Origin: a virus
Direction: 5' to 3' (one strand)
DNA length: 50,252 nucleotides
Virus record (IMG/VR): IMGVR_UViG_3300025138_000064
Location: 1-50,252 of that record
Shown: positions 421-41,100 of the stretch, piece after piece
How positions within the stretch are numbered: the first letter of the stretch is position 1
Layout: the number at the start of each line of letters is the position of its first letter
Program-made: the position numbers and the translations under genes
The notes under the pieces: generated by a model
Database searches by the model: none
What the model was told of the DNA's origin: nothing
The model's input: the letters and a program-made list of their open reading frames with translations, nothing else

Positions 421-447
421 TAGTATCAATTAACATAATAATTAAAG

Positions 448-476
448 AGCCCCGCATTAGCGGGGCTTTTTTTTTT
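448..476 (+). terminator. Rho-independent terminator after gp23
   Basis: A perfect 8-bp stem, AGCCCCGC (448-455) and GCGGGGCT (460-467), encloses the loop ATTA and is followed by nine T residues (468-476). Such a G+C-rich stem is exceptional in this A+T-rich genome. It separates the capsid gene from the amidinotransferase operon. Confidence 0.95.
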
Positions 477-540: not shown

Positions 541-1455
541 ATGAAAGAGACACCCTCACAGTTACCTATTCAGAGTTATATAATGAATTTCCCACATACA
601 TTTTCAACAGATGATCCAAATAATGTTTGGATGAAGGAAATGTCCAATAAAGAGTTAGCAATAAATAGACCAAAAGCATATAAGCAATTTATGGACTTAT
701 ATAATTTTATGGCTGGTCAATCATTAGTACATTTATTACCTGCAGAAGGCAATTTTCAGGATTTAATTTATGTAGCAAATTTAGGTTTACAATTACCACA
801 TATTAAAGATGAAAACCATATTTTATTATCTAATTATACTTCACCCCCAAGACAAGGAGAAGAGTATGTAGGTGAAAAATTCTTTAATCAAATGGGTTAT
901 AAAACTCATATATCTCCTTATAAATGGGAAGGTGAAGCAGATATAAAATATTTAAAAGATAATGTCTATATAGGGGGGTATGATATTCGTTCAAATATTA
1001 AAACATATCATTGGATGGAAGAAAATTTTAATATGAATATTATTAAAGTTAAAATGGTTGATGAGTATATGTACCATTTAGATTGTTCTATTTTTCCGTT
1101 AAATACGCGCTCAACTATGGTTTGTACGGAGCTATATGATAAAACTGAGTTAGCGCAAATTAGCAACTATACTAACATAATAGACATAGATGCCGAAGAC
1201 TCAATGTATGGGATGGCTAATTCTGTTAGATTGGGCAATATGATTTTATGTGCTTCTAATATATCAGAAATGAAACGGGGAGATGAATTTTATGAAGGTG
1301 AAAAACATAAAATTGCTTCATTAGAAAAAATATGTTCTGATGAAGGAATGGAACCTGTAATATTTAATTTATCTGAGTACATGAAATCAGGAGCTATGTT
1401 AAGTTGTATGGTAATGCATTTAAATAGAGTAGATCATTTTAAATCACTTCTTTAA
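541..1455 (+). CDS. Amidinotransferase/DDAH-superfamily guanidino-modifying enzyme
   Basis: A 304-residue protein of the pentein fold that includes arginine deiminase, dimethylarginine dimethylaminohydrolase (DDAH) and glycine amidinotransferase. Visible family features are DLIYVAN (74-80), the acidic WEGEAD segment (129-134), GGYDIR (145-150), the catalytic His in YHLDCSIFPL (His179) and the catalytic Cys near the C-terminus in GAMLSCMVMHLNR (Cys289). Together these supply the Asp/Glu-His-Cys set. The enzyme should attack the guanidinium carbon of arginine or a derivative, either hydrolysing it or transferring the amidino group. The length (about 300) is nearer to DDAH than to eukaryotic glycine amidinotransferase (above 400). 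It heads an operon with psd (1-nt overlap) and phoH. The exact substrate cannot be read from the sequence. It may be linked to the guanidinoacetate-methyltransferase-like gene at 21932. Confidence 0.78.
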   Translation: MKETPSQLPIQSYIMNFPHTFSTDDPNNVWMKEMSNKELAINRPKAYKQFMDLYNFMAGQSLVHLLPAEGNFQDLIYVANLGLQLPHIKDENHILLSNYTSPPRQGEEYVGEKFFNQMGYKTHISPYKWEGEADIKYLKDNVYIGGYDIRSNIKTYHWMEENFNMNIIKVKMVDEYMYHLDCSIFPLNTRSTMVCTELYDKTELAQISNYTNIIDIDAEDSMYGMANSVRLGNMILCASNISEMKRGDEFYEGEKHKIASLEKICSDEGMEPVIFNLSEYMKSGAMLSCMVMHLNRVDHFKSLL

Positions 1456-2174
1456 TGGCTGAAACTTTAGAAGATTGGTTAAACGGAGAAGTAAATGAAT
1501 TATCTAAATTATCAGTAGGAGAATTAAGCAATACATTTTTTTTTAGAGATCCATTAAGATCAACTCATATAGATTATAAACATTTTTATAGCCCAGCAGA
1601 TGGTACTATTTTATATCAAAAAATAGTTCAACCTGGTGAACAAGTTTTAGAAATAAAAGGCATTGATTATACTATTCAAGATGTAATGGGTGATAGTAGT
1701 TACAATAAACCTTCTTTAGTTATTGGAATATTTATGTCATTTTATGATGTACATATAAATAGAATTCCTTATAATGGTGTACTTAGGTATAAGCGTTTGG
1801 AACCTATAGAATCAACAAATAAACCAATGTTAGCAGTAGAAAAGGATATCTTAAATAAGGTAATTAATCCTAATAACATGGCGTATTTAAAATACAATGA
1901 AAGAATGTCTAACAAAGTGTATGTTCCTTCTTTAGATTATACATACCACATAATACAAATAGCCGATGAAGATGTAAATGTAATAGCCCCCTTTAAACAA
2001 CAAGGAGATCTTTGCACACAAAACGAAAGATTTAGTTTAATTAGATGGGGGTCACAAGTAGATTTAGTTCTGCCTTTAGATTCTAGATATAAATTTAAGA
2101 CTATTCTAGATGATACAATGCATGTAAATGCCGGTCTTGATAAACTAATTAAAATAACTTATAATGACATCTAA
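1455..2174 (+). CDS. psd: Phosphatidylserine decarboxylase proenzyme, short type
   Basis: A 239-residue match to short-form (PSD-A type) phosphatidylserine decarboxylase, which makes phosphatidylethanolamine from phosphatidylserine with a pyruvoyl cofactor produced by self-cleavage. Landmarks in order are SPADG (46-50, Asp49), IGIFMSFYDVHINRIPYNG (90-108, His100) and FSLIRWGSQVDLVLP (193-207). The Gly199-Ser200 bond is the expected cleavage site, giving a beta chain 1-199 and alpha chain 200-239; Asp49, His100 and Ser200 fit the known processing triad. No N-terminal membrane segment is seen. The start ATG overlaps the stop of the preceding gene by 1 nt (TAATG), and phoH overlaps its end by 11 nt, so the three are translationally coupled. 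This is a rare auxiliary metabolic gene for a phage and would alter host membrane lipids. The canonical residues argue for an active enzyme. Confidence 0.85.
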   Translation: MAETLEDWLNGEVNELSKLSVGELSNTFFFRDPLRSTHIDYKHFYSPADGTILYQKIVQPGEQVLEIKGIDYTIQDVMGDSSYNKPSLVIGIFMSFYDVHINRIPYNGVLRYKRLEPIESTNKPMLAVEKDILNKVINPNNMAYLKYNERMSNKVYVPSLDYTYHIIQIADEDVNVIAPFKQQGDLCTQNERFSLIRWGSQVDLVLPLDSRYKFKTILDDTMHVNAGLDKLIKITYNDI

Positions 2175-9752: not shown

Positions 9753-12700
9753 ATGGCATTAGATAAAACAAAAAAGTCGAATAGACTACTAGAAAGTAGA
9801 AGGTATACTCATGAAACTTTAGAAAATAATCAAGAAGCATTTACAAGTGTCCTTGATATAAATTCTACAGAGGTATACTCACAGACTAATTTGATTTATG
9901 CCACTGCATTACCTTATAGTGCATCAGGTCAAACTTTAGATGTTTATTATTCTGGTAGTAGTGCAACATATCCAACAGGAAACCCAAGCGGCGATCCTAT
10001 TGCTTTATATTATAATAGACAACGACTTACACCATCTAACGTAGTTAATGGTAGTAAAACTGAAGTATGGTTTTTTGTTTCTTCATCTACAGATCCAAAT
10101 ACACCAGGAACAGCAATTGATCCTCAACTACTAAATGCTAATCAACAAGGTAAATTTATATCACCAAAATATTCAGATGTTTCTTTAGCAAATGCTTTTG
10201 CAGATGATGCTACTCCTGGATATAATGTAACAGTTGAAGTTTCAACAAATAGTGGTGTTGATTGGACAAGACAAAATGCAGCAAATTATCAATTTGATTA
10301 TAGAATGGGTGTTATACAGTTTACTACACAAGCAGTAGCACCATCATCAACAGATTATTTAGCAGTAAGTATTTATCAATATATAGGAAAAACAGTAGCT
10401 GATAGTGGTGGAAGTGGATCATCAGGTTCATCAGGTACTTCAGGTTCATCAGGATCTAGTGGTACATCAGGTAGCTCAGGCTCATCAGGTACAAGTGGTT
10501 CATCAGGATCATCAGGTACTTCAGGTAGCTCAGGTTCATCAGGTACAAGTGGTTCAAGTGGTTCAAGCGGTACATCAGGATCGAGTGGTTCAAGTGGTAC
10601 TTCAGGTTCATCAGGTTCATCAGGAACATCAGGATCATCAGGGTCTAGTGGCACATCAGGATCTTCAGGATCTAGTGGTACATCAGGTTCTTCAGGTTCA
10701 TCAGGTATTTCAGGTTCATCAGGTTCATCAGGAACAAGTGGCTCAAGTGGCTCAAGTGGTTCAAGCGGTTCATCAGGTATTTCAGGTAGCTCAGGATCAT
10801 CAGGTACTTCAGGTAGCTCAGGATCAAGTGGTACTTCAGGTTCATCAGGTTCATCAGGAATAAGTGGTTCATCAGGATCTAGTGGTACATCAGGTTCATC
10901 AGGATCTAGTGGTACAAGTGGTTCAAGTGGTTCATCAGGAACATCAGGTTCAAGTGGTTCATCAGGAACAAGTGGTTCATCAGGATCATCAGGTACTTCA
11001 GGATCAAGTGGATCTAGTGGCACATCAGGTTCTTCAGGTTCATCAGGTATTTCAGGTTCATCAGGTTCATCAGGAACAAGTGGTACAAGTGGTTCAAGCG
11101 GTTCATCAGGTACTTCAGGTAGCTCAGGTTCATCAGGTACTTCAGGTAGTTCAGGATCTAGTGGTACTTCAGGTTCATCAGGTTCATCAGGAACAAGTGG
11201 TTCATCAGGATCTAGTGGTACAAGTGGTTCAAGTGGTTCATCAGGAACAAGTGGTTCAAGTGGTTCAAGTGGTACTTCAGGTTCATCAGGTTCATCAGGA
11301 ACAAGTGGGTCGTCAGGATCAAGTGGTATAAGTGGTTCAAGTGGTTCATCAGGAATAAGCGGTTCAAGTGGTTCAAGTGGTACAAATGGTTCATCAGGAT
11401 CATCAGGTACAAGTGGTTCATCAGGATCATCAGGTACATCAGGTAGCTCAGGATCAAGTGGTATTTCAGGTTCAAGTGGATCATCAGGAACTTCAGGTTC
11501 ATCAGGTTCATCAGGTACAAGCGGTTCATCAGGTTCAAGTGGTACAAGTGGTTCATCAGGATCTAGTGGTACATCAGGATCAAGTGGTTCATCAGGTACA
11601 TCAGGTTCAAGTGGTTCAAGTGGTACATCAGGTTCTTCAGGATCAAGTGGTACATCAGGATCAAGTGGTTCATCAGGTACTTCAGGAAGTTCAGGTTCAT
11701 CAGGTACAAATGGTTCTAATGGGTTATTTGGTGGTATTCCATATAGTTTTAGTACTACAGTAGGTGGTAATACTGCAATAGGAACAATAAGACTTAATAA
11801 TGCAGATGCAGAATTAACAACTCAAGTTATTATTAATAATGAAGATGCAGAAACTGGTGAGCAAGAATCATATTTAGCAACTTTTGATGATGCTGGATTT
11901 ACTAATAATAGAGGTTATTTAGTAATACAAGAAGCAGATGGTGGTGGAGCAAGTTCTCAAGATTTTGCAACATTTATAATAAAATCTATTGCTAGTACAG
12001 CAAATAGTCAACATACATTTGATGTTACTTATGTAGCAGCAACAAATTCAGGAACAGGTAATCCACCGTTTACGGATGCCGATAAAATAGTAATTGCTTT
12101 TTCAGCAACAGGTGTAGCAGGTTCATCAGGATCAAGTGGTACTTCAGGGTCTTCAGGATCAAGTGGTACAAGTGGTTCAAGTGGTTCTTCAGGTACATCA
12201 GGTTCATCAGGTTCATCAGGTACATCAGGTAGCTCAGGTTCATCAGGTACATCAGGTAGCTCAGGTTCATCAGGTACTTCAGGTTCAAGTGGTTCAAGTG
12301 GTACTTCAGGTTCTTCAGGTTCATCAGGTACATCAGGTAGCTCAGGTTCATCAGGTACAAGTGGTTCAAGTGGTTCATCAGGTACAAGTGGTTCATCAGG
12401 TTCAAGTGGTACATCAGGTTCTTCAGGTTCATCAGGAACATCAGGTTCAAGTGGATCATCAGGAACTTCAGGTTCATCAGGTTCAAGTGGTACAAGTGGT
12501 TCATCAGGATCATCAGGTACATCAGGTAGCTCAGGTTCATCAGGTACAAGTGGTTCAAGTGGTTCAAGTGGTACATCAGGTTCTTCAGGTTCATCAGGTA
12601 CTTCAGGATCAAGTGGTTCATCAGGTACTTCAGGCAGCTCAGGTTCATCAGGTACAAATGGTTTAGCGGGTAATTGCGGTAGAAACACGTATACAACATC

Positions 12701-15700
12701 GGGTTCACCATCAGCAGGGCAAGTATCGTTTAGAGATAGTTCTGCTGATCCTACGACAGATGCTGATGAAGTAACTAGATTAACATTTAATAGTACATCT
12801 TCTACATTCTTATTACTTAAAAACTTAGTTATTGGGGATCCAATAACAATAACAGATGACGATGGAGTAGTTGCAAACTATTCATGGCAAGGTAATCCTT
12901 CATCAACTCAGATAGCAGTAACTTATGTAGCGGCAGGATCCGGTACTTGGACTGCAGTTAATCAAGGTGATCCATTTACAATATGCGCTTTTGTTTCATC
13001 AGGATCTTCAGGTTCATCAGGTACAAGTGGTTCAAGTGGTTCATCAGGTACAAGTGGTTCAAGTGGTTCAAGTGGAACAAGCGGTTCATCAGGATCTAGT
13101 GGTACATCAGGTAGCTCAGGTTCAAGTGGTACAAGTGGTTCTTCAGGATCATCAGGTACTTCAGGATCTTCAGGTTCATCAGGTACAAGCGGTTCATCAG
13201 GATCTAGTGGTACATCAGGTAGCTCAGGTTCAAGTGGTACAAGTGGTTCTTCAGGATCATCAGGTACTTCAGGATCTTCAGGTTCATCAGGCACAAGTGG
13301 TTCATCAGGATCTAGTGGTACATCAGGTAGCTCAGGTTCAAGTGGTACAAGTGGTTCTTCAGGATCATCAGGTACTTCAGGATCTTCAGGTTCATCAGGT
13401 ACAAGCGGTTCATCAGGATCTAGTGGAACAAGTGGTTCATCAGGATCTAGTGGTACTTCAGGGTCATCAGGTTCATCAGGAACATCAGGTTCAAGTGGTT
13501 CATCAGGTACTTCAGGATCAAGTGGATCTTCAGGTACAAATGGTGATAGAGGAGGAGTTGAATACGAATATTTTTCATCACCTTTAGTAGACCCAGGAGA
13601 ACTTAATTATTCAACAGGAACATCACAAATTGTACTTAATAAAACTGATGTTAATGGTAATGATCAAAGTAATTGGATAAACAGTTGGAATGATCAAGGA
13701 AATTCAACTACAGGAATAGGTAGATTAACAGTACAAGAAGCAGGAAGTGGTAATGAAATATTAGCAGTAACACTAGCAGCACAAGTAACATTATCAGGAA
13801 ATGTTTATACATTTTCAACGGTATCAGGAACTTTAATAAATACAGGATTTTCGGCAAGTGATAGATTAGTTGTAAGTTTTGCGGCTTATGGTGATTCAGG
13901 TTCAAGCGGATCATCAGGAACAAGTGGTTCATCAGGATCATCAGGTACTTCAGGTTCTTCAGGATCGTCAGGAACAAGTGGTTCATCAGGATCAAGTGGT
14001 ACATCAGGTAGCTCAGGTTCATCAGGTACAAGTGGCTCAAGTGGCTCAAGTGGTACAAGTGGTTCATCAGGATCAAGTGGTACTTCAGGTTCAAGTGGAT
14101 CATCAGGAACTTCAGGTTCTTCAGGTTCATCAGGTACAAGCGGTTCATCAGGATCAAGTGGAACAAGTGGTTCATCAGGATCTAGTGGTACATCAGGATC
14201 AAGTGGTTCATCAGGTACTTCAGGTTCAAGTGGTTCAAGTGGTACTTCAGGATCAAGTGGATCTTCAGGTACATCAGGATCATCAGGATCTAGTGGTACA
14301 TCAGGATCAAGTGGTTCTTCAGGTACTAGTGGTTCTTCAGGATCTAGTGGTACATCAGGATCAAGTGGATCATCAGGTACTTCAGGTTCTTCAGGTTCAT
14401 CAGGTACAACAGGATTAACAGGAAATTGTATTAGTAATACTTTTACAACATCTGGTTCGCCATCAGCAGGTCAAGTATCATTTAGAAATAATTCTTCAGA
14501 CCCAACAACAGATGGAGATGAAGTAACTAGATTAACATTTAACAGTTCTACAGCACCTGGATTTCTATTACTTAAAAACTTAGTTGTTGGAGACCCTATA
14601 ACGATAACAGATGCTGATGGAATTGTCAACAATTATTCATGGGGTGGTAATCCTTCATCAACTCAAATAGCAGTAACTTATGTATCAGCTGGGTCTGGTA
14701 CTTGGACTTCAATTAACCAAGGCGATCCATTTGTAATATGCGCTTTTGTTTCATCAGGTTCTTCAGGTTCATCAGGAACTTCAGGTTCAAGTGGTTCATC
14801 AGGTACATCAGGATCTTCAGGTTCATCAGGTACAAGTGGTTCTTCGGGATCTTCAGGTACAAGTGGTTCAAGTGGTTCAAGTGGAACAAGCGGTTCATCA
14901 GGATCATCAGGTACATCAGGTTCAAGTGGATCTTCAGGTACTTCAGGTTCAAGTGGATCATCAGGAACTTCAGGTTCATCAGGTTCATCAGGTACAAGTG
15001 GTACAAGTGGCTCAAGTGGTTCAAGTGGTACAAGTGGTTCATCAGGATCAAGTGGTACTTCAGGTTCAAGTGGATCATCAGGAACTTCAGGTTCTTCAGG
15101 TTCATCAGGAACATCAGGTAGCTCAGGTTCATCAGGAACAAGTGGTTCAAGTGGTTCATCAGGTACTTCAGGATCTTCAGGTTCATCAGGTACAAGCGGT
15201 TCATCAGGATCAAGTGGAACAAGTGGTTCATCAGGATCTAGTGGTACATCAGGATCAAGTGGTTCATCAGGTACATCAGGTAGCTCAGGTTCATCAGGTA
15301 CAAGTGGTTCAAGTGGTTCAAGTGGTACTTCAGGTTCAAGTGGATCATCAGGTACATCAGGTTCAAGTGGTTCATCAGGTACAACAGGATTAACAGGAAA
15401 CTGTAATAGAAACACGTATACAACATCGGGTTCACCTTCAACAGCTACACAAGTATCATTTAGAAATAGTTCTGCTGATCCTACGACAGACGCTGATGAA
15501 GTAACTAGATTAACATTTAACAGTTCCACATCACCTGGGTTTTTATTACTTAAAAATCTAGTTGTTGGAGATCCAATAACAATAACAGATGACGACGGGA
15601 TTGTTGCAAATTATTCATGGGGTGGTAACCCTTCATCAAATCAAATAGCAGTAACTTATGTATCAGCTGGATCAGGTACTTGGACTTCAGTTAACCAGGG

Positions 15701-18700
15701 TGATCCATTTATAATATGTGCTTTTGTTTCATCAGGTTCTTCAGGTTCATCAGGAACTTCAGGTTCAAGTGGATCTTCAGGTACTTCAGGTTCAAGTGGT
15801 TCATCAGGAACATCAGGTTCTTCAGGTTCATCAGGAACTTCAGGATCTTCAGGTTCATCAGGTACAAGTGGTTCAAGTGGTTCATCAGGTACAAGCGGTT
15901 CATCAGGATCAAGTGGAACAAGTGGTTCATCAGGATCTAGTGGCACATCAGGATCAAGTGGTTCATCAGGAACATCAGGTTCTTCAGGTTCATCAGGTAC
16001 AAATGGCTCAAGTGGTTCAAGTGGTACAAGTGGTACAAGTGGTTCATCAGGATCAAGTGGTACATCAGGTTCATCAGGATCAAGTGGTACAAGTGGTTCA
16101 AGTGGTTCATCAGGAACAAGTGGTTCAAGTGGTTCAAGTGGTACAAGTGGTTCATCAGGATCAAGTGGTACATCAGGTTCATCAGGATCAAGTGGTACAT
16201 CAGGATCAAGTGGTTCAAGTGGTACATCAGGATCATCAGGATCTAGTGGTACATCAGGATCAAGTGGTTCATCAGGTACAAGTGGTTCAAGTGGTTCAAG
16301 TGGTACTTCAGGATCAAGTGGGTCATCAGGTACTTCAGGTTCAAGTGGTTCATCAGGTACATCGGGATTAACTGGAAATTGTGATAGAAACACGTATACA
16401 ACATCAGGTTCACCATCAGCAGGGCAAGTATCATTTAGAGATAGTTCTGCTGATCCTACACAAACCGCTGCTAATGTTACTAGATTAACATTTAATAGTT
16501 CTACAGCATCTGGGTTTTTATTACTTAAAAATTTAGTTGTTGGAGATCCTGTAACAATAACAGATGATGATGGAGTAGTTGCAAACTATTCATGGGGCGG
16601 TAATCCTGCATCAAACCAAATAGCAGTAACTTACGTATCAGCTGGATCGGGTGTTTGGACTGCTACTAGTCAAGGTGATCCATTTGTAATATGTGGTTTT
16701 ATTTCATCAGGTTCTTCAGGTTCATCAGGAACTTCAGGTTCTTCAGGATCAAGTGGTACTTCAGGTTCAAGTGGTTCATCAGGAACATCAGGTTCTTCAG
16801 GTTCATCAGGAACTTCAGGATCTTCAGGTTCATCAGGTACAAGTGGTTCAAGTGGTTCATCAGGTACAAGCGGTTCATCAGGATCATCAGGTACATCAGG
16901 TTCTTCAGGATCAAGTGGTACTTCAGGTTCAAGTGGATCATCAGGAACATCAGGTTCTTCAGGTTCATCAGGTACAAATGGCTCAAGTGGTTCAAGTGGT
17001 ACAAGTGGTTCATCAGGATCAAGTGGTACATCAGGATCTTCAGGATCAAGTGGTACAAGTGGTTCAAGTGGTTCATCAGGAACAAGTGGTTCAAGTGGTT
17101 CATCAGGAACAAGTGGTTCAAGTGGTTCATCAGGTACAAGTGGTTCATCAGGATCTAGTGGTACATCAGGATCAAGTGGTTCATCAGGTACTTCAGGTTC
17201 AAGTGGTTCATCAGGTACATCAGGATCTTCAGGATCAAGTGGTACTTCAGGTTCTTCAGGATCATCAGGTACATCAGGTTCAAGTGGATCTTCAGGTACA
17301 TCGGGTGATAGAGGAGGAGTAAAATATCAATTTGTCACAACAGTTAATTCAGATGGAGAATTTAATTATAATGGTTCAAATACTGTTCAATTTAATAGAG
17401 ATGATGTAAATGGTGTTGACCAAGGAACATGGTTAAATTCATGGAATGATACAGGTGATAGTACAAATGGATTTGGTGTACTTACAGTTCAAAGTGCTGA
17501 TAGTGGAAATAATGTATTAGTTGCTATAGTAACAGCTGTAAATAATTCAATAGGATTATATTTTCAAGCTACTGTTACAGAATTAACATATGATGCTTTC
17601 CAATTAAATGAACAAGTTGTTGTATCATTTGCCCAATTTGGTAATTCAGGTAGCTCAGGTTCATCAGGTACATCAGGATCTTCAGGTTCATCAGGTACTT
17701 CAGGATCAAGTGGATCTTCAGGTACAAGTGGTTCATCAGGATCTAGTGGTACTTCAGGTAGTTCAGGATCAAGTGGTACTTCAGGATCTTCAGGTTCATC
17801 AGGTACTTCAGGATCAAGTGGATCTTCAGGTACAAGTGGTTCATCAGGATCTAGTGGTACATCAGGTTCATCAGGATCATCAGGTACTTCAGGTAGTTCA
17901 GGTTCATCAGGTACAAGTGGTTCAAGTGGTTCAAGTGGTACAAGTGGTTCTTCAGGATCATCAGGTACATCAGGAACAAGTGGTTCATCAGGATCATCAG
18001 GTACTTCAGGTAGTTCAGGTTCATCAGGAACATCAGGTTCAAGTGGTTCAAGTGGTACAAGTGGTTCTTCAGGATCAAGTGGTACTTCAGGATCAAGTGG
18101 TTCTAGTGGTACTTCAGGTTCATCAGGATCAAGTGGAACAAGTGGTTCATCAGGATCAAGTGGAACAAGCGGTTCATCAGGATCAAGTGGAACAAGCGGT
18201 TCATCAGGATCAAGTGGAACAAGTGGTTCATCAGGATCTAGTGGTACATCAGGATCAAGTGGTTCATCAGGTACTTCAGGTTCAAGTGGTTCAAGTGGTA
18301 CAAGTGGTTCTTCAGGATCATCAGGTACATCAGGGTCAAGTGGTTCTAGTGGTACAAGGGGTGAATATGGTGGTGTTCCTTACACATTTAGTAATACAAC
18401 TTCTTCTACAGGAATATCACAAGGGCAAATAAGATTTAATAATGGTACATTAGGAAGTGTTAATACAATCTTTATAAATAATGAAGATAGAAATGGGGTT
18501 AATGTAAGTGCATGGTTAAATACTTATTCAACAGCTGGTATATTCTATGTTAAATCAGCAAATGGTGCAGATGCATCAGTTGGATTATTTACAGTAACAT
18601 CTAGAAGTGTTGGTGCTTCATTTACCACAATAGCAGTATCAAGTCCTTCAGGACAAACATTTGCAAATGGAGAAGAAATAAGTGTAATATTTGCACCAAA

Positions 18701-20174
18701 AGGTAATAATGGTGAATCAGGTTCATCAGGTTCTTCAGGTACTTCAGGTAGTTCAGGTTCATCAGGTACAAGTGGTTCAAGTGGTTCAAGTGGTACTTCA
18801 GGTTCAAGTGGATCATCAGGTACTTCAGGTAGCTCAGGATCTAGTGGTACATCAGGATCTTCAGGATCAAGTGGTACTTCAGGATCAAGTGGTTCAAGTG
18901 GTACTTCAGGTTCTTCAGGATCAAGTGGATCTTCAGGTTCATCAGGTACTTCAGGATCTTCAGGTTCATCAGGTACTTCAGGATCAAGTGGATCTTCAGG
19001 TACAAGTGGTTCATCAGGATCAAGTGGAACAAGCGGTTCATCAGGATCAAGTGGAACAAGCGGTTCATCAGGATCAAGTGGAACAAGTGGTTCATCAGGA
19101 TCTAGTGGTACATCAGGTTCATCAGGATCTAGTGGTACATCAGGTTCATCAGGATCTAGTGGTACATCAGGTTCAAGTGGATCTTCAGGTTCATCAGGTT
19201 CTTCAGGTACTTCAGGATCTTCAGGTTCATCAGGTACAAGTGGTTCAAGTGGTTCAAGTGGTACAAGTGGTTCATCAGGATCATCAGGTACATCAGGTAG
19301 CTCAGGTTCATCAGGTACAAGTGGCTCAAGTGGCTCAAGTGGTACAAGTGGTTCATCAGGATCATCAGGTACATCAGGTTCATCAGGATCTAGTGGTACA
19401 TCAGGATCTTCAGGTTCATCAGGTACTTCAGGATCAAGTGGATCTTCAGGTACAAGTGGTTCATCAGGATCTAGTGGTACATCAGGTTCATCAGGATCTA
19501 GTGGTACATCAGGTTCAAGTGGATCTTCAGGTACAAGTGGTTCATCAGGATCATCAGGTACTTCAGGATCAAGTGGATCTTCAGGTACAAGTGGTTCATC
19601 AGGATCTAGTGGTACATCAGGTTCATCAGGATCATCAGGTACTTCAGGTAGTTCAGGTTCATCAGGTACAAGTGGAGCTACAGGACCTGTAGGAGGATCA
19701 AATACCCAAGTATTATATAATAATAGTGGAGCAGCAGCAGGATCATCTGATATGACATTTTCGAATGGAAGTGGAATCTTAACTGTTGAAAGGCTAAATG
19801 TAGGATTAAGTGCTGGAACTAATAGTACTGATGGTTTAATTAGAGCTGAAAATGATATAATAGCATTTGCAACTTCAGATAGAAGATTAAAAACTAATAT
19901 ATTAACTATACCAAATGCTTTAGAAAAGGTAAGTATGTTAAATGGTGTTAATTTTGATTGGTTAGAATTTGAAGCTAATAAAACACAAGCTATACATGCT
20001 AATGAGGGACATGATATAGGTATTATAGCCCAAGAAGTTGAAGCTATATTCCCAGAATTAGTTACAACAAGAACTAATGGATATAAAGCAGTAAAATATG
20101 ATAAATTAGTAGCTGTATTAATTGAAGCCATTAAGGAATTAAAATCAGAAATTGATGAATTAAAAAAGAAATAA
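9753..20174 (+). CDS. Giant collagen-like tail fibre with S74 self-cleaving chaperone
   Basis: A 3,473-residue protein. An N-terminal globular region (residues 1-221) is followed by nine blocks of Gly-X-Y triplets, mostly (GSS)(GSS)(GTS), totalling roughly 2,190 residues (63%). They alternate with eight globular modules of about 110-127 residues in two families (order B, A, B, A, A, A, B, B). The blocks contain no proline. Residues 3375-3473 are a peptidase S74 / intramolecular chaperone domain: Ser3375 and Lys3380 in SDRRLKTN form the self-cleavage dyad, and the end is the coiled coil IKELKSEIDELKKK. S74 domains trimerise fibres and are then released. Gly at every third residue is the collagen pattern and implies a triple helix; without proline its stability would need another source. 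The neighbouring glycosyltransferase (22554) is a candidate modifier. The reading frame is intact over 10.4 kb, which supports a functional gene. Confidence 0.9.
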   Translation: MALDKTKKSNRLLESRRYTHETLENNQEAFTSVLDINSTEVYSQTNLIYATALPYSASGQTLDVYYSGSSATYPTGNPSGDPIALYYNRQRLTPSNVVNGSKTEVWFFVSSSTDPNTPGTAIDPQLLNANQQGKFISPKYSDVSLANAFADDATPGYNVTVEVSTNSGVDWTRQNAANYQFDYRMGVIQFTTQAVAPSSTDYLAVSIYQYIGKTVADSGGSGSSGSSGTSGSSGSSGTSGSSGSSGTSGSSGSSGTSGSSGSSGTSGSSGSSGTSGSSGSSGTSGSSGSSGTSGSSGSSGTSGSSGSSGTSGSSGSSGISGSSGSSGTSGSSGSSGSSGSSGISGSSGSSGTSGSSGSSGTSGSSGSSGISGSSGSSGTSGSSGSSGTSGSSGSSGTSGSSGSSGTSGSSGSSGTSGSSGSSGTSGSSGSSGISGSSGSSGTSGTSGSSGSSGTSGSSGSSGTSGSSGSSGTSGSSGSSGTSGSSGSSGTSGSSGSSGTSGSSGSSGTSGSSGSSGTSGSSGSSGISGSSGSSGISGSSGSSGTNGSSGSSGTSGSSGSSGTSGSSGSSGISGSSGSSGTSGSSGSSGTSGSSGSSGTSGSSGSSGTSGSSGSSGTSGSSGSSGTSGSSGSSGTSGSSGSSGTSGSSGSSGTNGSNGLFGGIPYSFSTTVGGNTAIGTIRLNNADAELTTQVIINNEDAETGEQESYLATFDDAGFTNNRGYLVIQEADGGGASSQDFATFIIKSIASTANSQHTFDVTYVAATNSGTGNPPFTDADKIVIAFSATGVAGSSGSSGTSGSSGSSGTSGSSGSSGTSGSSGSSGTSGSSGSSGTSGSSGSSGTSGSSGSSGTSGSSGSSGTSGSSGSSGTSGSSGSSGTSGSSGSSGTSGSSGSSGTSGSSGSSGTSGSSGSSGTSGSSGSSGTSGSSGSSGTSGSSGSSGTSGSSGSSGTSGSSGSSGTSGSSGSSGTNGLAGNCGRNTYTTSGSPSAGQVSFRDSSADPTTDADEVTRLTFNSTSSTFLLLKNLVIGDPITITDDDGVVANYSWQGNPSSTQIAVTYVAAGSGTWTAVNQGDPFTICAFVSSGSSGSSGTSGSSGSSGTSGSSGSSGTSGSSGSSGTSGSSGSSGTSGSSGSSGTSGSSGSSGTSGSSGSSGTSGSSGSSGTSGSSGSSGTSGSSGSSGTSGSSGSSGTSGSSGSSGTSGSSGSSGTSGSSGSSGTSGSSGSSGTSGSSGSSGTSGSSGSSGTSGSSGSSGTSGSSGSSGTNGDRGGVEYEYFSSPLVDPGELNYSTGTSQIVLNKTDVNGNDQSNWINSWNDQGNSTTGIGRLTVQEAGSGNEILAVTLAAQVTLSGNVYTFSTVSGTLINTGFSASDRLVVSFAAYGDSGSSGSSGTSGSSGSSGTSGSSGSSGTSGSSGSSGTSGSSGSSGTSGSSGSSGTSGSSGSSGTSGSSGSSGTSGSSGSSGTSGSSGSSGTSGSSGSSGTSGSSGSSGTSGSSGSSGTSGSSGSSGTSGSSGSSGTSGSSGSSGTSGSSGSSGTSGSSGSSGTSGSSGSSGTTGLTGNCISNTFTTSGSPSAGQVSFRNNSSDPTTDGDEVTRLTFNSSTAPGFLLLKNLVVGDPITITDADGIVNNYSWGGNPSSTQIAVTYVSAGSGTWTSINQGDPFVICAFVSSGSSGSSGTSGSSGSSGTSGSSGSSGTSGSSGSSGTSGSSGSSGTSGSSGSSGTSGSSGSSGTSGSSGSSGTSGSSGSSGTSGTSGSSGSSGTSGSSGSSGTSGSSGSSGTSGSSGSSGTSGSSGSSGTSGSSGSSGTSGSSGSSGTSGSSGSSGTSGSSGSSGTSGSSGSSGTSGSSGSSGTSGSSGSSGTSGSSGSSGTSGSSGSSGTTGLTGNCNRNTYTTSGSPSTATQVSFRNSSADPTTDADEVTRLTFNSSTSPGFLLLKNLVVGDPITITDDDGIVANYSWGGNPSSNQIAVTYVSAGSGTWTSVNQGDPFIICAFVSSGSSGSSGTSGSSGSSGTSGSSGSSGTSGSSGSSGTSGSSGSSGTSGSSGSSGTSGSSGSSGTSGSSGSSGTSGSSGSSGTSGSSGSSGTNGSSGSSGTSGTSGSSGSSGTSGSSGSSGTSGSSGSSGTSGSSGSSGTSGSSGSSGTSGSSGSSGTSGSSGSSGTSGSSGSSGTSGSSGSSGTSGSSGSSGTSGSSGSSGTSGSSGSSGTSGLTGNCDRNTYTTSGSPSAGQVSFRDSSADPTQTAANVTRLTFNSSTASGFLLLKNLVVGDPVTITDDDGVVANYSWGGNPASNQIAVTYVSAGSGVWTATSQGDPFVICGFISSGSSGSSGTSGSSGSSGTSGSSGSSGTSGSSGSSGTSGSSGSSGTSGSSGSSGTSGSSGSSGTSGSSGSSGTSGSSGSSGTSGSSGSSGTNGSSGSSGTSGSSGSSGTSGSSGSSGTSGSSGSSGTSGSSGSSGTSGSSGSSGTSGSSGSSGTSGSSGSSGTSGSSGSSGTSGSSGSSGTSGSSGSSGTSGSSGSSGTSGDRGGVKYQFVTTVNSDGEFNYNGSNTVQFNRDDVNGVDQGTWLNSWNDTGDSTNGFGVLTVQSADSGNNVLVAIVTAVNNSIGLYFQATVTELTYDAFQLNEQVVVSFAQFGNSGSSGSSGTSGSSGSSGTSGSSGSSGTSGSSGSSGTSGSSGSSGTSGSSGSSGTSGSSGSSGTSGSSGSSGTSGSSGSSGTSGSSGSSGTSGSSGSSGTSGSSGSSGTSGTSGSSGSSGTSGSSGSSGTSGSSGSSGTSGSSGSSGTSGSSGSSGTSGSSGSSGTSGSSGSSGTSGSSGSSGTSGSSGSSGTSGSSGSSGTSGSSGSSGTSGSSGSSGTSGSSGSSGTSGSSGSSGTRGEYGGVPYTFSNTTSSTGISQGQIRFNNGTLGSVNTIFINNEDRNGVNVSAWLNTYSTAGIFYVKSANGADASVGLFTVTSRSVGASFTTIAVSSPSGQTFANGEEISVIFAPKGNNGESGSSGSSGTSGSSGSSGTSGSSGSSGTSGSSGSSGTSGSSGSSGTSGSSGSSGTSGSSGSSGTSGSSGSSGSSGSSGTSGSSGSSGTSGSSGSSGTSGSSGSSGTSGSSGSSGTSGSSGSSGTSGSSGSSGTSGSSGSSGTSGSSGSSGTSGSSGSSGSSGSSGTSGSSGSSGTSGSSGSSGTSGSSGSSGTSGSSGSSGTSGSSGSSGTSGSSGSSGTSGSSGSSGTSGSSGSSGTSGSSGSSGTSGSSGSSGTSGSSGSSGTSGSSGSSGTSGSSGSSGTSGSSGSSGTSGSSGSSGTSGSSGSSGTSGSSGSSGTSGATGPVGGSNTQVLYNNSGAAAGSSDMTFSNGSGILTVERLNVGLSAGTNSTDGLIRAENDIIAFATSDRRLKTNILTIPNALEKVSMLNGVNFDWLEFEANKTQAIHANEGHDIGIIAQEVEAIFPELVTTRTNGYKAVKYDKLVAVLIEAIKELKSEIDELKKK
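12672..16709 (+). other. Module family A in the giant fibre (four copies)
   Basis: Four closely similar modules of about 110 residues lie at roughly 12672-13001, 14424-14756, 15399-15734 and 16377-16709. Each begins just after GN with a Cys (NCxRNTYTTSGSPS), contains LTFNSS, LLLKNLVVGDPITITDDDG and NYSWGGNPSS, and ends DPFxICAFVSSG with a second Cys. The paired cysteines at the entry and exit could form a disulfide or staple the trimer; this is inference. The strong similarity, including at the DNA level, shows recent duplication. The fold is unknown. Confidence 0.85.
13083..13406 (+). repeat. Three tandem copies of a 108-nt higher-order repeat
   Basis: Within repeat block 3 the DNA itself repeats with a period of 108 nt (four 27-nt units): 13083-13190, 13191-13298 and 13299-13406. 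The copies share the same synonymous codon pattern (for example GGTAGCTCAGGTTCAAGT), with only single-base differences such as ACAAGC/ACAAGT. A fourth copy starts at 13407 and diverges within 30 nt. This marks a recent duplication on top of the older diverged array. Confidence 0.9.
18117..18224 (+). repeat. Four near-perfect 27-nt tandem units (block 8)
   Basis: Units 18117-18143, 18144-18170, 18171-18197 and 18198-18224 are identical except for AGT/AGC at the last codon. The same unit recurs three times at 19008-19088 in block 9, pointing to recent exchange or copying between blocks. Confidence 0.9.
19008..19088 (+). repeat. Three near-perfect 27-nt tandem units (block 9)
   Basis: Units 19008-19034, 19035-19061 and 19062-19088 are the same 27-nt unit as at 18117-18224, including the AGC/AGT variation. 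They are likely products of recent slippage or inter-block recombination. Confidence 0.9.
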
Positions 20175-26802: not shown

Positions 26803-29418
26803 ATGGCAGAAACATTAATTTCCCCAGGAGTATTAGCAAGAGAAAACGATCAATCTCAAATTACTTCACAACCAGTACAGGCCGGAGCGGCTATCGTTGG
26901 TCCTACTGTGTTAGGTAAAAAAGGAATCCCAAAACTAGTAACTAGTTATTCAGAATATTTAGCCAATTTTGGAAGTACATTCCAAAGTGGTTCAGACGAA
27001 TACACATATTTTACTTCCGTATCGGCATATAACTATTTTAATAATGGAGGAACTTCATTATTAATAGATAGAGTTAACTCTGGATCATTTAGTCCAGCAG
27101 TTTCATCTTTAATCCCAGCTGTAGAAGCCGAAAGTGGTGCTCTAACAGTAGGTGCAAATATTTTAACTAGCTTAACAAGTGGCGGAACTGGTGGTACAGC
27201 AGCAACTTATTCTGATAAAGATCTTGCTACGGTAACTGGAACAGGTAGTGGTGGAAAAGCAGATCTTGTTGTATCTACTGCTAATGGAAAATTAGTAACA
27301 ACTGTAGACGATTTATTAGGTGAAGTTCAAACAGGAACAGCAGCTACATTAATGTCAGATGCTACTTACACAGATGTTGTATTAACACAAGGATCAGTAG
27401 TATCGGGTAAAGCAACTATTACAGTAACAGGTAATTCAGTAGTTTCTCCAGTAACAGTAACAACAGCAGGATCAGGATATGCAGCTGGAAACATAACAAT
27501 TGCAGCAGGAGCATTAGGAGCAGGATTATTTGTAGCAGGAACAGGCCCAGTACCAACAGGTACAGGAGCTGGTTATGCCGTAGGTGGTATACCAACAGCT
27601 TCAGGAGCAATTACAATTACAGCAGGTATGGTATCTGGTGGAGGAGAAGGTGGTACAATTAATTTTACCACAGATGCAGCAGGAGCAATTGCTTCATGTG
27701 TGTTAGCAATTGGAGCTAGTAAAAATTATACAGCATCATCTGTAATTACAGTTGATGCAGTAACATTAGCAGGGTCTTCATTAAATGCAGCTGGTACAGG
27801 AACAGCAGTAGTAACTTTATCATCATCAGAAGTACAAGATTCAGCTGGAGTAACAGTAGCAATAATAGCAGCTAACTTACTAACAGAAGTTACAGCAGCA
27901 ACAATAGACACAGCAGGATCAGGATATGCAGTAAATGACCAAGTACAAGTAGTAGCTGCCGATTTAGGTGGTGGTTCAGCAACAAATGCAGTATTTACAA
28001 TTACAGCAGCTGATTTAACAGACACAAATGTATTTACATTAGAATCAATTTCAGAAGGTAATATTATGAATAATACCGGAACTGAATCAGCTAATGGAGC
28101 ATTAATATCAGGTTCAAGAAATAATATTAGATGGGAAATACAAGCTCCTAATACAGGATCAGGTACATTTAGTTTAATTATTAGACAAGGTAATGATAAC
28201 TCAAAATCAAAATCAATATTAGAAATTTTCCCTAATGTTTCATTAGATCCAAAACAATCTAACTATGTAGCAAGAATTGTTGGTGATATGACAGAACAAT
28301 TAAGAGGATCAGGTACTGATTTATATGTTCAAACAACAGGATCTTATGCAAACGCATCTAGATATGTAAGAGTATCATCAGTTAATTTAAAAACTCCAGA
28401 CTATTTTGATAATAGTGGAATTGCAAAAGCAGAATTTACAGGATCTATTCCATCTGCTGCAAGTGGAACAATGGGTGGTGCAACAGGAGTGATAGTAGCA
28501 GCTAATCAAAATTACTACGATAAAATAAGTAATACAGATACTCAAGGTATTGATTCAGCAGCAATGGACGGTTACACAGATGCATTTAATTTATTAGCAA
28601 ATAAGGATGATTATAGATATAATATATTAACAGCCCCAGGATTAGTTTATGCTAATTCAGCAGCAGCAACTCCATTAAATACAGCAATTTCAAATGTGCA
28701 AGGTAGAGGAGATGCAATTTTTATAGTAGATTTAGAAAATTACGGATCAACAGTAACAGCAACTATAGGAACAGCAGCAAGTATAGATAATTCATATGCA
28801 GCAGCTTATTGGCCATGGTTACAATTAGCAGATCCAGATTCAAGACAATTAGTATGGGTGCCAGCATCAACGTTAATGCCTGGAGTATACGCGTATAACG
28901 ACAAGTCAGCTGAAGCATGGTTTGCTCCGGCGGGTATTAATAGAGGTGGTTTAGGTACGGTAGTACAAGCAGAAAGAAAATTAACTCAAACTAATAGAGA
29001 TGATTTATATACAGGAAAAGTTAATCCAATAGCTACGTTCCCAGGAAGAGGAGTTGTAGTATTTGGTCAGAAAACATTACAATCACAAGCATCAGCTTTA
29101 GATAGAGTAAATGTTAGAAGACTATTAATTGAACTTAAATCTTATATTTCACAAGTTGCTGATAATTTAGTATTTGAACAAAATACAGCAGCAACAAGAA
29201 ACGGATTTTTAGCTCAAGTAAATCCATATTTAGAGTCAGTACAACAAAGACAAGGTTTATACGCGTTTAAAGTTGTAATGGATGCTTCAAATAATGGCCC
29301 GGATGTTGTTGATAGAAACCAAATGGTAGGTGCAATATATTTACAGCCAACTAAAACAGCTGAATTTATTTACCTAGACTTTAACATTTTACCAACAGGA
29401 GCTCAGTTTCCATCGTAA
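26803..29418 (+). CDS. 18: Tail sheath protein, T4 gp18-like, with large decorated insert
   Basis: An 871-residue contractile sheath subunit. The N-terminus (TLISPGVLARENDQSQI and GAAIVGPTVLGKKGIPKLV), YFNNGGTSLLIDRV, and the C-terminal core (FAPAGINRGGL, NPIATFPGRGVVVFGQKTL, RVNVRRLLIELKSYI, FLAQVNPYL) are standard for T4-type sheaths. It is about 210 residues longer than T4 gp18 (659). Most of the excess is an Ala/Thr/Gly/Val-rich region at about residues 105-415 (27115-28050) holding GxGY units (TAGSGYAAGNITIAAGAL; TAGSGYAVNDQVQVVAADL) of the type also found in the virion protein at 2948. The insert follows the first sheath strands and should lie on the outer surface. A late motif precedes it and the tube gene follows. 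Confidence 0.95.
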   Translation: MAETLISPGVLARENDQSQITSQPVQAGAAIVGPTVLGKKGIPKLVTSYSEYLANFGSTFQSGSDEYTYFTSVSAYNYFNNGGTSLLIDRVNSGSFSPAVSSLIPAVEAESGALTVGANILTSLTSGGTGGTAATYSDKDLATVTGTGSGGKADLVVSTANGKLVTTVDDLLGEVQTGTAATLMSDATYTDVVLTQGSVVSGKATITVTGNSVVSPVTVTTAGSGYAAGNITIAAGALGAGLFVAGTGPVPTGTGAGYAVGGIPTASGAITITAGMVSGGGEGGTINFTTDAAGAIASCVLAIGASKNYTASSVITVDAVTLAGSSLNAAGTGTAVVTLSSSEVQDSAGVTVAIIAANLLTEVTAATIDTAGSGYAVNDQVQVVAADLGGGSATNAVFTITAADLTDTNVFTLESISEGNIMNNTGTESANGALISGSRNNIRWEIQAPNTGSGTFSLIIRQGNDNSKSKSILEIFPNVSLDPKQSNYVARIVGDMTEQLRGSGTDLYVQTTGSYANASRYVRVSSVNLKTPDYFDNSGIAKAEFTGSIPSAASGTMGGATGVIVAANQNYYDKISNTDTQGIDSAAMDGYTDAFNLLANKDDYRYNILTAPGLVYANSAAATPLNTAISNVQGRGDAIFIVDLENYGSTVTATIGTAASIDNSYAAAYWPWLQLADPDSRQLVWVPASTLMPGVYAYNDKSAEAWFAPAGINRGGLGTVVQAERKLTQTNRDDLYTGKVNPIATFPGRGVVVFGQKTLQSQASALDRVNVRRLLIELKSYISQVADNLVFEQNTAATRNGFLAQVNPYLESVQQRQGLYAFKVVMDASNNGPDVVDRNQMVGAIYLQPTKTAEFIYLDFNILPTGAQFPS

Positions 29419-38136: not shown

Positions 38137-41100
38137 ATGAACATAACACAACAACCTTTTGCACCTTGGGTAACTGAGCAAATTAATACAAGACAAAGAT
38201 CTTTAGGTAATAGTACTAACTTAACTACTACTAATTTACTTTACCAAAATTCAAAAACACCCTGGTTAAGATTAGCAAGTTCAGTAAATATTAATCAATC
38301 TCCTGAAAATGATGGGGTTTTTAATAAATTATTAAATTTGGGGTTTGATGGTTCTCAATTAAGAGGAGATAATGTTGCTCGAAATTTTATATTACAAGGA
38401 GGAGTATCTAAAATAGTATCTACACAACCAGATAATTTTGTAGAATTACCTACAAATACCGGTACACCTAATTTTGGTTTAAATTCAAAAAATGAATTAT
38501 TTAATGGTGCTTATGGTTGGGGTGGTTTAGATCAAAGAGGATATGTCCCAATGCCAGGAATATTAGGTGCAGATGTTAAATATTATAAAAGTGGAGCTTT
38601 ATCAAAAGCTACTATTAAAATGAAATGTTTTTCAAGGAACCAATTAGCTTTAATGGATGTTCTTTACATGAGACCTGGTTATAATCTACTTTTAGAATTT
38701 GGGTGGAGTCAATATCTAGATAATGAGGGAAATTTACAAACATTTGATAATTTTTTCTCACCAGCATTAAGTTTTGTATTTGATCCTTATGTTGGGAATA
38801 GTTCTTCACCTAACCATTATGATGTTTTAAACCTTATTCAAAAAGAAAGGTATGCTAGAAGAGGTAATTATGAAGGTGTATTTGGTAAAGTGTCTAATTT
38901 TAAATGGTCATTTAACCCAGATGGAAGTTATGATTGTTCTGTAGATTTAACAGGTATGGGGGATATGATGGAATCTCTTAAATGTAATATTAAACTTCCT
39001 TCTAATAAAGATGATGATCAATCATTTAATAATGGGGCAGTTGGATCAACTGATCAACCACCACTAATTGCTAATAAAAATAAAACAACATTAAATAAAG
39101 TTTTATATAATCTTTATGAACAAACTAGTGGAGATAGAGATAATGATACTTATTGGAATGTAAAATTACCCAATTTCCCATTAGTAGATTCAACTATTGA
39201 TTCAGATGGTAATGTTACAACTGTAGCAAAACGAGAAGATATTACAATAAAAAAAGGAATGTTATCAATACAGGACACTACAACTGATGAAGATAATAAT
39301 GAAAGTCCTCAAGTATATATTACTTTTGGAACTTTTATAGCTATAATTCAAAAATATTTGCTTGTTTATAATAATGAACAAGATAAAGTACCACTATTTT
39401 CATTTGATATTGATTTTAAAAATATAGAAAAAGATGAAAATTATATAGTAAAAATCCCAGGTCAATTTTCTGCTAATCCTTTAGTATGTCTTATACCTTA
39501 TACAGGAGTAAATCTTGAAAACATTACAGATATTAAATATCCGGAAACAGCTACTAATAACACAATGAGTAAAATATCTACTAATTGGGATTATCAAACA
39601 TATTTAGGAAGACTAGCTCATATTTATTTAAATATTAATAATATAGCTACTATTTTAAATGATTCTCCTAGAGAGGAAGATGGAAGTTTATCATTATTAA
39701 GTTTTTTAAATTCTGTAATGGATTCATTTACAGCATCTTTAGGAGGAATTAATTTGCTTTCAATTAAAGTAGATGAAGTAACAGGACAGGTTAAATTTTT
39801 AGAAAATTCTCCACAAAGATTTGATAATGAACCCTCAAACCAAACTTTTGCAAGACTTAATACATTTGGGGTTAAACCTGACACAGAAGGAAGTATTGTT
39901 AGAAATATAGTAATGGGTGGAGAATTAGGACCTAAATATGCTTCATTAATAGTTATTGGGTCTCAAATTAGTGGGAATAAGCTATCAGCTAATGCTACAG
40001 GGTTTGCTGCTTATAATAGAGGTCTTGAGGATAGAGTTATTAAACAAAAAGTAAATGCTGATTATGATGAAGGAGATACTGAAGAGGAAGTAGAAGCTTC
40101 TGAAGAAGAACAAATATCAGATCTTTGGAATAACCAAATACACGATGAATTTATTAGAGATAGTTTTTTTGATTCATTGTTTGAAAATATCTATGATGAT
40201 AAAGACTTTCTTAATGAAGATATAAAATGTTTAGAAGAACTTCTTTATAATTATTTAAGTTTAATATCTGGAAAATTAGTTAAAGATAAACAACTACAAT
40301 CACCATCATTTTTACCATTTAATTTAAGTCTTGATATTGATGGTTTATCTGGAATAAAATTATTTGAAAAGTTTTTAATTGATGATGCTGTTTTACCCCC
40401 TTCGTATGGAGAAGGAAATGTAGATTTAATGGTATCTGCTTTAAACCATACTGTATCTCCAGCATCTTGGATAACTCAAATAGATACTCAAGCATCACCT
40501 CATAGTAAAATGAGTAGAGTTTCATCACCAACTACTTTAAAGTCAAAAACAACTAAGCAAAAATCAGCAGGAGGAGAAGATAATTATGGTGCCGGAGCAG
40601 GAGAAGGTGATGATTTTTCATTAACATCTGGTTTTCCATTAGAAGCTCCAACTAAAAATAAGAAAATTTATTGGGATGTTGAAACACCTAAAAAACAAAT
40701 TTATGTTCATCATACAGCAGGACATACTAAGTCACCAGGTAAATCTATTGCAGGTTGGGCTAAAAGAACAGACCACGTTGCAACTCATTATATAACAAAT
40801 AATTTAGGAGATAAAGAACAAGTATTTGCAGATGAATATTGGGCAAATCATTTAGGTATTCCTTCAAGTACATTTAACTCTGAAGGTATTCCTTATCAAA
40901 ATTTAAATAAAGTAAGTTTAGGTATTGAAATGCAAGCTATGGGTCCTTTAAAATTAAAAAATGGAAAATATTACACCTATCCTAGTAATTTTAATAATGG
41001 TACTATTTCTGAAGATAGAGTAGCAAGACCTGTTGATAAAAATGGTAATCCATCAACATATAAAGGTTATTCTTATTATGAAAAATATAATGCAGCAAAC

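Follow-up and report, generated by a model that had tools for sequence, protein, structure and literature searches.

A phage gene of the phosphatidylserine decarboxylase superfamily paired with an arginine dihydrolase-like gene: a possible two-gene route from arginine to putrescine

Two overlapping genes between the capsid gene and phoH

The stretch of DNA analyzed here (the window) comprises 50,252 nucleotides, positions 1 to 50,252 of the IMG/VR virus record IMGVR_UViG_3300025138_000064. Close to its start, two open reading frames (ORFs) overlap by the A of a TAATG sequence, which is common to both. The gp23 major capsid gene is located upstream of this pair and a phoH gene downstream (Table 1). 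Relatives of the second ORF, ORF 1455-2174, are encoded in at least 188 IMG/VR stretches; together with the flanking gp23 and PhoH genes, this establishes that it is a real viral gene. A mis-assembled host fragment, the objection raised in the earlier note on this DNA, was excluded, since the same synteny is present across many viral contigs.

Table 1. Positions of the genes, codons and motifs discussed in the text.
Feature	Position	Strand	Basis and remarks
Hairpin resembling an intrinsic terminator, followed by a T run, between capsid gene and pair	444..471	+	12-pair stem, 7 GC; consensus match only
Arginine dihydrolase-like protein (phrog_12759), predicted L-arginine to L-ornithine + CO2 + 2 NH3	541..1455	+	304 aa; NCBIfam, PDB sequence search, Foldseek, active site
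Codon Asn80 (= ArgZ Asn71)	778..780	+	Alignment to 6jv0/6juz; invariant
Codon Cys289 (= ArgZ nucleophile Cys264, by motif)	1405..1407	+	Invariant; Cys264 mutant complexes in PDB titles
PSD-superfamily pyruvoyl decarboxylase, soluble subfamily (phrog_12670)	1455..2174	+	239 aa, ATG start; PF02666, subfamily tree, N-terminal hydropathy, genomic pairing
Codon Asp49 (= E. coli PSD D90)	1599..1601	+	Invariant; mapping after PMC7952604
Codons Asp98-Val99-His100 (= E. coli D142-Y143-H144)	1746..1754	+	H100 invariant
QIADEDVN motif, residues 168-175, possible pocket for the side chain of a cationic substrate	1956..1979	+	Alignment and tally
Codons Gly199-Ser200, predicted self-cleavage site (Ser200 to pyruvoyl)	2049..2054	+	Invariant; followed by subfamily-specific Gln201
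PhoH-like ATPase, 244 aa	2164..2898	+	PF02562, 213 bits; start overlaps end of PSD-like gene
MATE-family transporters beside the bacterial pair	L166 7729-9069; L173 7767-9095; L163 7830-9215; L164 7750-9144		

The catalytic residues of a self-processing decarboxylase are conserved

The product of ORF 1455-2174 matches the Pfam family PF02666 (PS_Dcarbxylase) with 85 bits and an E-value of 7e-24 (cut-off 22), which rules out a chance match to the phosphatidylserine decarboxylase (PSD) family. No other Pfam family was matched, and no homology to AdoMetDC was detected by this search; a further match was to phrog_12670, a family without a name. Self-cleavage of E. coli PSD involves D90/D142, H144 and S254, of which H144 also takes part in decarboxylation (PMC7952604). 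Alignment of the phage protein onto this enzyme assigns these residues to D49 (SPADG motif), D98 and H100 (FYDVH) and S200 (WGS), showing that the Asp-His-Ser set and the Gly-Ser site described in the earlier note are indeed present. All 95 sequences compared (74 from phages, 21 from bacteria) have D49, H100, G199 and S200, and D98 is kept in 73 of the 74 phage and all 21 bacterial rows; it is replaced by Ser only in Bacteroides phages, whose protein also lacks R103. Comparisons with relatives gave dN/dS values of 0.08-0.17, and the gene is under purifying selection.

A PDB search with the single sequence gave no match, and a profile search of the PDB returned the E. coli PSD beta chain only. 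The AlphaFold2 model, for which phage sequences alone were used as input, had a pLDDT of 37.5 and was unusable. As judged from its residues, ORF 1455-2174 apparently encodes a phage version of a self-processing pyruvoyl decarboxylase of the PSD superfamily that is predicted to be active. The location of the gene between the capsid gene and the neck genes would also fit a non-catalytic or virion-associated protein, a reading that we regard as very improbable. It is at odds with the invariant catalytic residues and the low dN/dS, with the occurrence of the gene in bacteria outside a phage context, and with the Flavobacterium phages 'immuto', which have other genes in this slot and in whose records relatives of the pair were not found.

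The phage protein falls into a subfamily of its own, apart from canonical PSD

The best score of ORF 1455-2174 against the NCBIfam PSD equivalogs was 77.8 bits, far under the cut-off of 183. Maximal hydropathy over 19 residues upstream of the PADG motif does not exceed 0.45 in the subfamily, compared to 0.71-2.17 in canonical PSDs, so the subfamily appears, from its sequences, to be devoid of the hydrophobic, membrane-associating N-terminal segment of the canonical enzymes. Phylogenetic analysis placed the phage and bacterial members together in a single group, distinct from the canonical PSDs encoded by these genomes (support 95/91); the tree was rooted at the midpoint and has long branches and a small sample of canonical PSDs, leaving the inner order unsure. 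The row of the Campylobacter phages lies outside all other members, and the following fork is modestly supported (87/57). Of the 20 bacterial genomes searched that carry the PSD-like gene, 16 encode a distinct canonical PSD in addition (137-211 bits).

Compared to the short form of PSD/archaetidylserine decarboxylase (PF02666; PRK05305, TIGR00164), the phage protein has the same superfamily fold signature, the SPADG and D-V-H-x-N-R-x-P motifs, the G-S self-cleavage site and, as predicted, the pyruvoyl cofactor. The phage subfamily differs from the short form in its N-terminus, in about 40 additional residues in the middle of the protein, in the sequence GSQ at the cleavage site, in its arginine dihydrolase-like gene partner and in its coexistence with canonical PSD. 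In addition, alignment and tally show that QIAG-x-x-ARR of the short form is replaced by QIAD-x-D-V-D/N. Acidic residues here take the place of basic ones, an exchange that, we infer, would favour a cationic substrate, for example ornithine.

The earlier note interpreted the gene as a PSD that makes phosphatidylethanolamine during infection and thereby remodels membranes, which would leave the pairing with an arginine enzyme incidental. This interpretation can draw on the PF02666 score above cut-off, on the intact D-H-S set and GS site, on Campylobacter phage records annotated accordingly and on an ocean survey in which pssA and psd are treated as viral genes, with negligible abundance of psd (PMC11360552). 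The position in a separate subfamily, the lost hydrophobic N-terminus, the canonical PSD present alongside in most of the bacteria and the near-obligate ArgZ-like partner described below all speak against it. Moreover, E. coli PSD uses its N-terminal helices for membrane binding and to support maturation, and it is inactive on serine analogues without acyl chains (PMC7952604). We consider a true PSD improbable at this locus, and the lipid-remodelling reading of the gene is probably wrong. Neither is a viral gene of this type unusual, as had been supposed, since the gene is already annotated as PSD in genomes of Campylobacter Fletchervirus.

The upstream gene encodes a protein related to arginine dihydrolases

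Relatives of ORF 541-1455 in Campylobacter phages are annotated as 'amidinotransferase', the name that the earlier note also used for this neighbour. The neighbours were correctly recognized insofar as both phoH and ORF 541-1455 adjoin the PSD-like gene; the product of ORF 541-1455, however, matches arginine dihydrolases best. The top NCBIfam matches were to arginine dihydrolase/ArgZ, with 84.9 bits against Arg_dihydro, under the cut-off of 450. Both proteins of the pair thus score under the equivalog cut-offs of their nearest named NCBIfam families, and judged by sequence ORF 541-1455 is at best a distant member of the ArgZ-type arginine dihydrolase family. A sequence search of the PDB returned Alr4995/AgrE and Sll1336/ArgZ as the only matches, with 21-22% identity to the solved structures. 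Foldseek was run with a predicted model of the protein (pLDDT 69), and ranks 1-13 were all ArgZ/AgrE chains (E-values 6e-14 to 1e-11), followed by DDAH, with agmatine deiminase and amidinotransferases far lower. An amidinotransferase identity was rejected, since ArgZ/AgrE are the best matches by both sequence and fold and SxtG and HsvA rank much lower; ORF 541-1455 is probably not an amidinotransferase.

The ArgZ residues N22, N71, R90, E118, R139 and H168 align to N28, N80, R104, E130, R150 and H179, and C264 was assigned to C289 from its motif, as the pairwise alignment does not extend to this position. All seven active-site positions that were checked are invariant in phage and bacterial rows. 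According to PDB titles, structures of the ArgZ active-site mutants N71S, with bound intermediate, and C264, with bound substrate, are available. In the ArgZ/DDAH superfamily, the equivalents of R90 and R139, here R104 and R150, presumably bind the alpha-carboxylate of the substrate. Since both arginines are kept, the substrate of ORF 541-1455 would be an amino acid, arginine, rather than agmatine. ArgZ/AgrE (Sll1336, Alr4995) of the cyanobacterial ornithine-ammonia cycle thus have the fold, the seven active-site positions and the predicted conversion of arginine to ornithine in common with the phage protein. In contrast to them, the phage protein is a stand-alone protein of 304 amino acids without an ornithine cyclodeaminase domain, and its partner is a decarboxylase.

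The two genes occur together in distant phages

A search of 50,697 phage records identified the PSD-like gene in 45 of them and the ArgZ-like gene in 46, all from Campylobacter (39-40) or Bacteroides (6) phages; the one surplus record with an ArgZ-like gene contains a short partial match only. The genes are adjacent in the Bacteroides phages, among them Bacteroides thetaiotaomicron phage DAC16. In Campylobacter phage CPX they are located about 93 kb apart, and yet both are present, showing that the pair is retained together without linkage. In Campylobacter phages, a gene for a homing endonuclease of the Hef type overlaps the PSD-like gene at its end (L002 6740-8185 in CPX), and a GroES-like gene is located upstream. 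Mobile endonucleases may have helped to split the pair there.

IMG/VR loci identified via the PSD-like gene contain both genes in 78 of 80 cases, separated by at most 15 bases; in the remaining two the contig starts at the PSD-like gene. PhoH adjoins the PSD-like gene in 79 of the 80 viral loci and is not located beside it in Campylobacter phage CPX. It is a constant downstream neighbour in the aquatic phages and probably stands outside the pathway.

As judged by tail sheath and replicative helicase, the closest cultured phages are the immuto phages, in which the interval from capsid gene to PhoH is filled by other genes. Since no relative of the PSD-like or ArgZ-like gene was found in the records of these phages, the pair behaves as a cassette. 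A contig of a Flavobacteriales metagenome assembly (NZWA01000018.1) is evidently a phage contig and encodes proteins 90-94% identical to those of the pair. This contig and the similarity to Flavobacterium phages suggest a host in this group for the virus from which the window derives.

Bacterial relatives are paired as well

A scan of bacterial genomes yielded 22 cellular loci with PSD-like homologues (44-53% identity), distributed over Verrucomicrobia, Saccharothrix, Sulfurimonas, Sedimenticola, KSB1, Latescibacterota, Eisenbacteria and a gammaproteobacterium. An ArgZ-like gene (40-52% identity) follows directly downstream in 20 of them. Of the two exceptions, one locus (L183) lies at the end of its contig, and in KSB1 the ArgZ-like gene is encoded on another contig. 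In one Verrucomicrobial order with 142 genomes, a count that ignores relatedness, both genes are adjacent in the same four genomes and neither is present in the other 138. The functional tie to gene 541-1455 that the earlier note had suggested is supported by a near-obligate pairing across phages and bacteria; what the PSD-like gene is tied to is an arginine dihydrolase-like gene, not phospholipid genes.

The decarboxylase gene comes first in bacteria and the ArgZ-like gene first in phages. The bacterial order would agree with a reversed sequence of reactions, in which the PSD-like enzyme converts arginine to agmatine and the ArgZ-like enzyme agmatine to putrescine, and a pyruvoyl arginine decarboxylase is indeed present in pelagiphage HTVC201P (PMC9992855). 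The opposite order in phages detracts from this argument. The ArgZ-like protein is, moreover, closer to ArgZ than to agmatine deiminases in fold and sequence and keeps both arginines assumed to bind the alpha-carboxylate. A reversed pathway is therefore improbable in our view.

In the Verrucomicrobiales checked, a gene for a PotD-like spermidine/putrescine-binding protein lies near the pair as a neighbour, not as part of one strict operon. A MATE transporter gene is located near the pair in the same Verrucomicrobiales as well as in Sulfurimonas, Sedimenticola and Chthoniobacterales. This transporter may export putrescine, or the product of the pair could be a different, exported compound. More generally, the pair might make another amine or guanidino-derived compound, for export or for modification of nucleic acids or proteins, from a substrate other than ornithine or arginine. 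Such a role would be in line with the MATE efflux gene in several phyla, with the catalytic diversity of guanidino-modifying enzymes, amidinotransferases being found lower in the same Foldseek list, and with the phages themselves, since no spermidine synthase-family gene was detected in nine related phage records. We nevertheless consider it unlikely, because the ArgZ-like active site is fully conserved and the phages and bacteria were not seen to have a constant third biosynthetic gene in common, so that two steps should suffice to reach the product.

Seven Verrucomicrobiales genomes with the pair encode one PF02784 protein each, which is LysA-like (42-46% identical to a protein above the LysA cut-off), and matches to OKR-type decarboxylases in these genomes were at most weak or borderline. 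These Verrucomicrobiales may therefore have no other ornithine or arginine decarboxylase. SpeA is present in three other bacteria carrying the pair, which shows that the pair does not always fill such a gap, and the support from missing decarboxylases is partial. Putrescine consumers resembling deoxyhypusine synthase were found in only four of the 20 bacterial genomes, and PF01564 matches too broadly in bacteria to be interpreted with respect to spermidine synthase.

A proposed pathway from arginine to putrescine

We propose that the two overlapping genes constitute a compact pathway by which the phage makes putrescine from L-arginine, consisting of a dihydrolase and a soluble, PSD-derived pyruvoyl ornithine decarboxylase; on balance, we hold this to be narrowly probable. 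In the first step, the dihydrolase encoded by ORF 541-1455 would convert arginine and water to ornithine, CO2 and two ammonia. The soluble PSD descendant encoded by ORF 1455-2174 would cleave itself at Gly199/Ser200, turning Ser200 into the pyruvoyl group, and would then decarboxylate ornithine to putrescine via a Schiff base, with His100 acting as H144 does in E. coli PSD. In this way, the phage would obtain putrescine without PLP and bypass the regulated host decarboxylases. Putrescine might serve to neutralize the charge of the packaged DNA, support translation or supply the spermidine synthesis of the host. With no spermidine synthase-family gene in the nine phage records, any use beyond putrescine would depend on the host.

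Superfamily, catalytic residues, purifying selection, loss of the N-terminus, separate subfamily and near-obligate ArgZ-like pairing are computed results. We infer from the overall picture that ornithine is both the product of the dihydrolase and the substrate of the decarboxylase and that the phage benefits; an error is most likely in the assignment of the decarboxylase substrate.

SpeD-derived pyruvoyl decarboxylases for ornithine and arginine have been described in phages (PMC9992855, PMC10407285), and these two papers do not mention PSD or arginine dihydrolase. A phage survey sought arginase homologues as a source of ornithine and found none in phages (PMC9992855). The SpeD-derived enzymes resemble the one proposed here in being PLP-free pyruvoyl decarboxylases, as predicted, that serve putrescine formation in phages and bacteria. 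The phage enzyme described here differs in belonging to the PSD and not the AdoMetDC superfamily, and it brings along its own predicted ornithine-supplying enzyme. A virus-encoded multi-step route from arginine to putrescine is also known from chlorovirus PBCV-1, an algal virus; that route requires three enzymes and proceeds via agmatine, compared to two genes in the phage pair (PMC9992855).

Within the PSD family, the fungal PsiD-type L-tryptophan decarboxylases act on a free amino acid and not on a lipid. They are a precedent for an amino acid-decarboxylating member, but they are fungal and use an aromatic substrate. A literature search of partial coverage retrieved no paper describing a PSD-derived ornithine decarboxylase in phages, and a description may exist elsewhere.

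From their genomic context, ORFs 541-1455 and 1455-2174 are predicted to belong to phage auxiliary polyamine metabolism. The evidence is evenly balanced as to whether a pyruvoyl-dependent ornithine decarboxylase arose independently from PSD and forms, with a stand-alone arginine dihydrolase, a two-gene pathway common to distant phages (Flavobacteria-type, Bacteroides, Campylobacter) and scattered bacterial phyla, misannotated in public records as lipid synthesis and amidinotransferase. If true, a gene called a membrane-lipid enzyme in dozens of Campylobacter phage genomes would be a polyamine enzyme, and the PSD superfamily would hold an amino acid decarboxylase common to phages and bacteria. 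The virosphere would contain a new two-gene route from arginine to putrescine and a new way of taking over the polyamine supply of the host. For metagenome surveys, this calls for caution, as a viral 'psd' need not indicate lipid remodelling.

Further genes in the window

The 871-amino acid tail sheath is encoded at 26803-29415, and tail-sheath families cover only its C-terminal part (PHROG from residue 392). Since the immuto sheath also matches the N-terminal end, the large N-terminal extension is at least partly common to Flavobacterium phages. After the tail sheath region, positions 38137-41328 encode a protein of 1063 amino acids with a C-terminal N-acetylmuramoyl-L-alanine amidase domain (PF01510, 27.1 bits against a cut-off of 26), possibly a virion-associated lysin. 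The ORF at 9753-20174 encodes 3473 amino acids. Most of its product is made up of triplet repeats of the collagen type (PF01391, 900 bits), and an endosialidase-chaperone domain (PF13884) forms the end. It is probably a giant self-cleaving collagen-like tail fibre, and its repeats generate many long spurious ORFs on the antisense strand.
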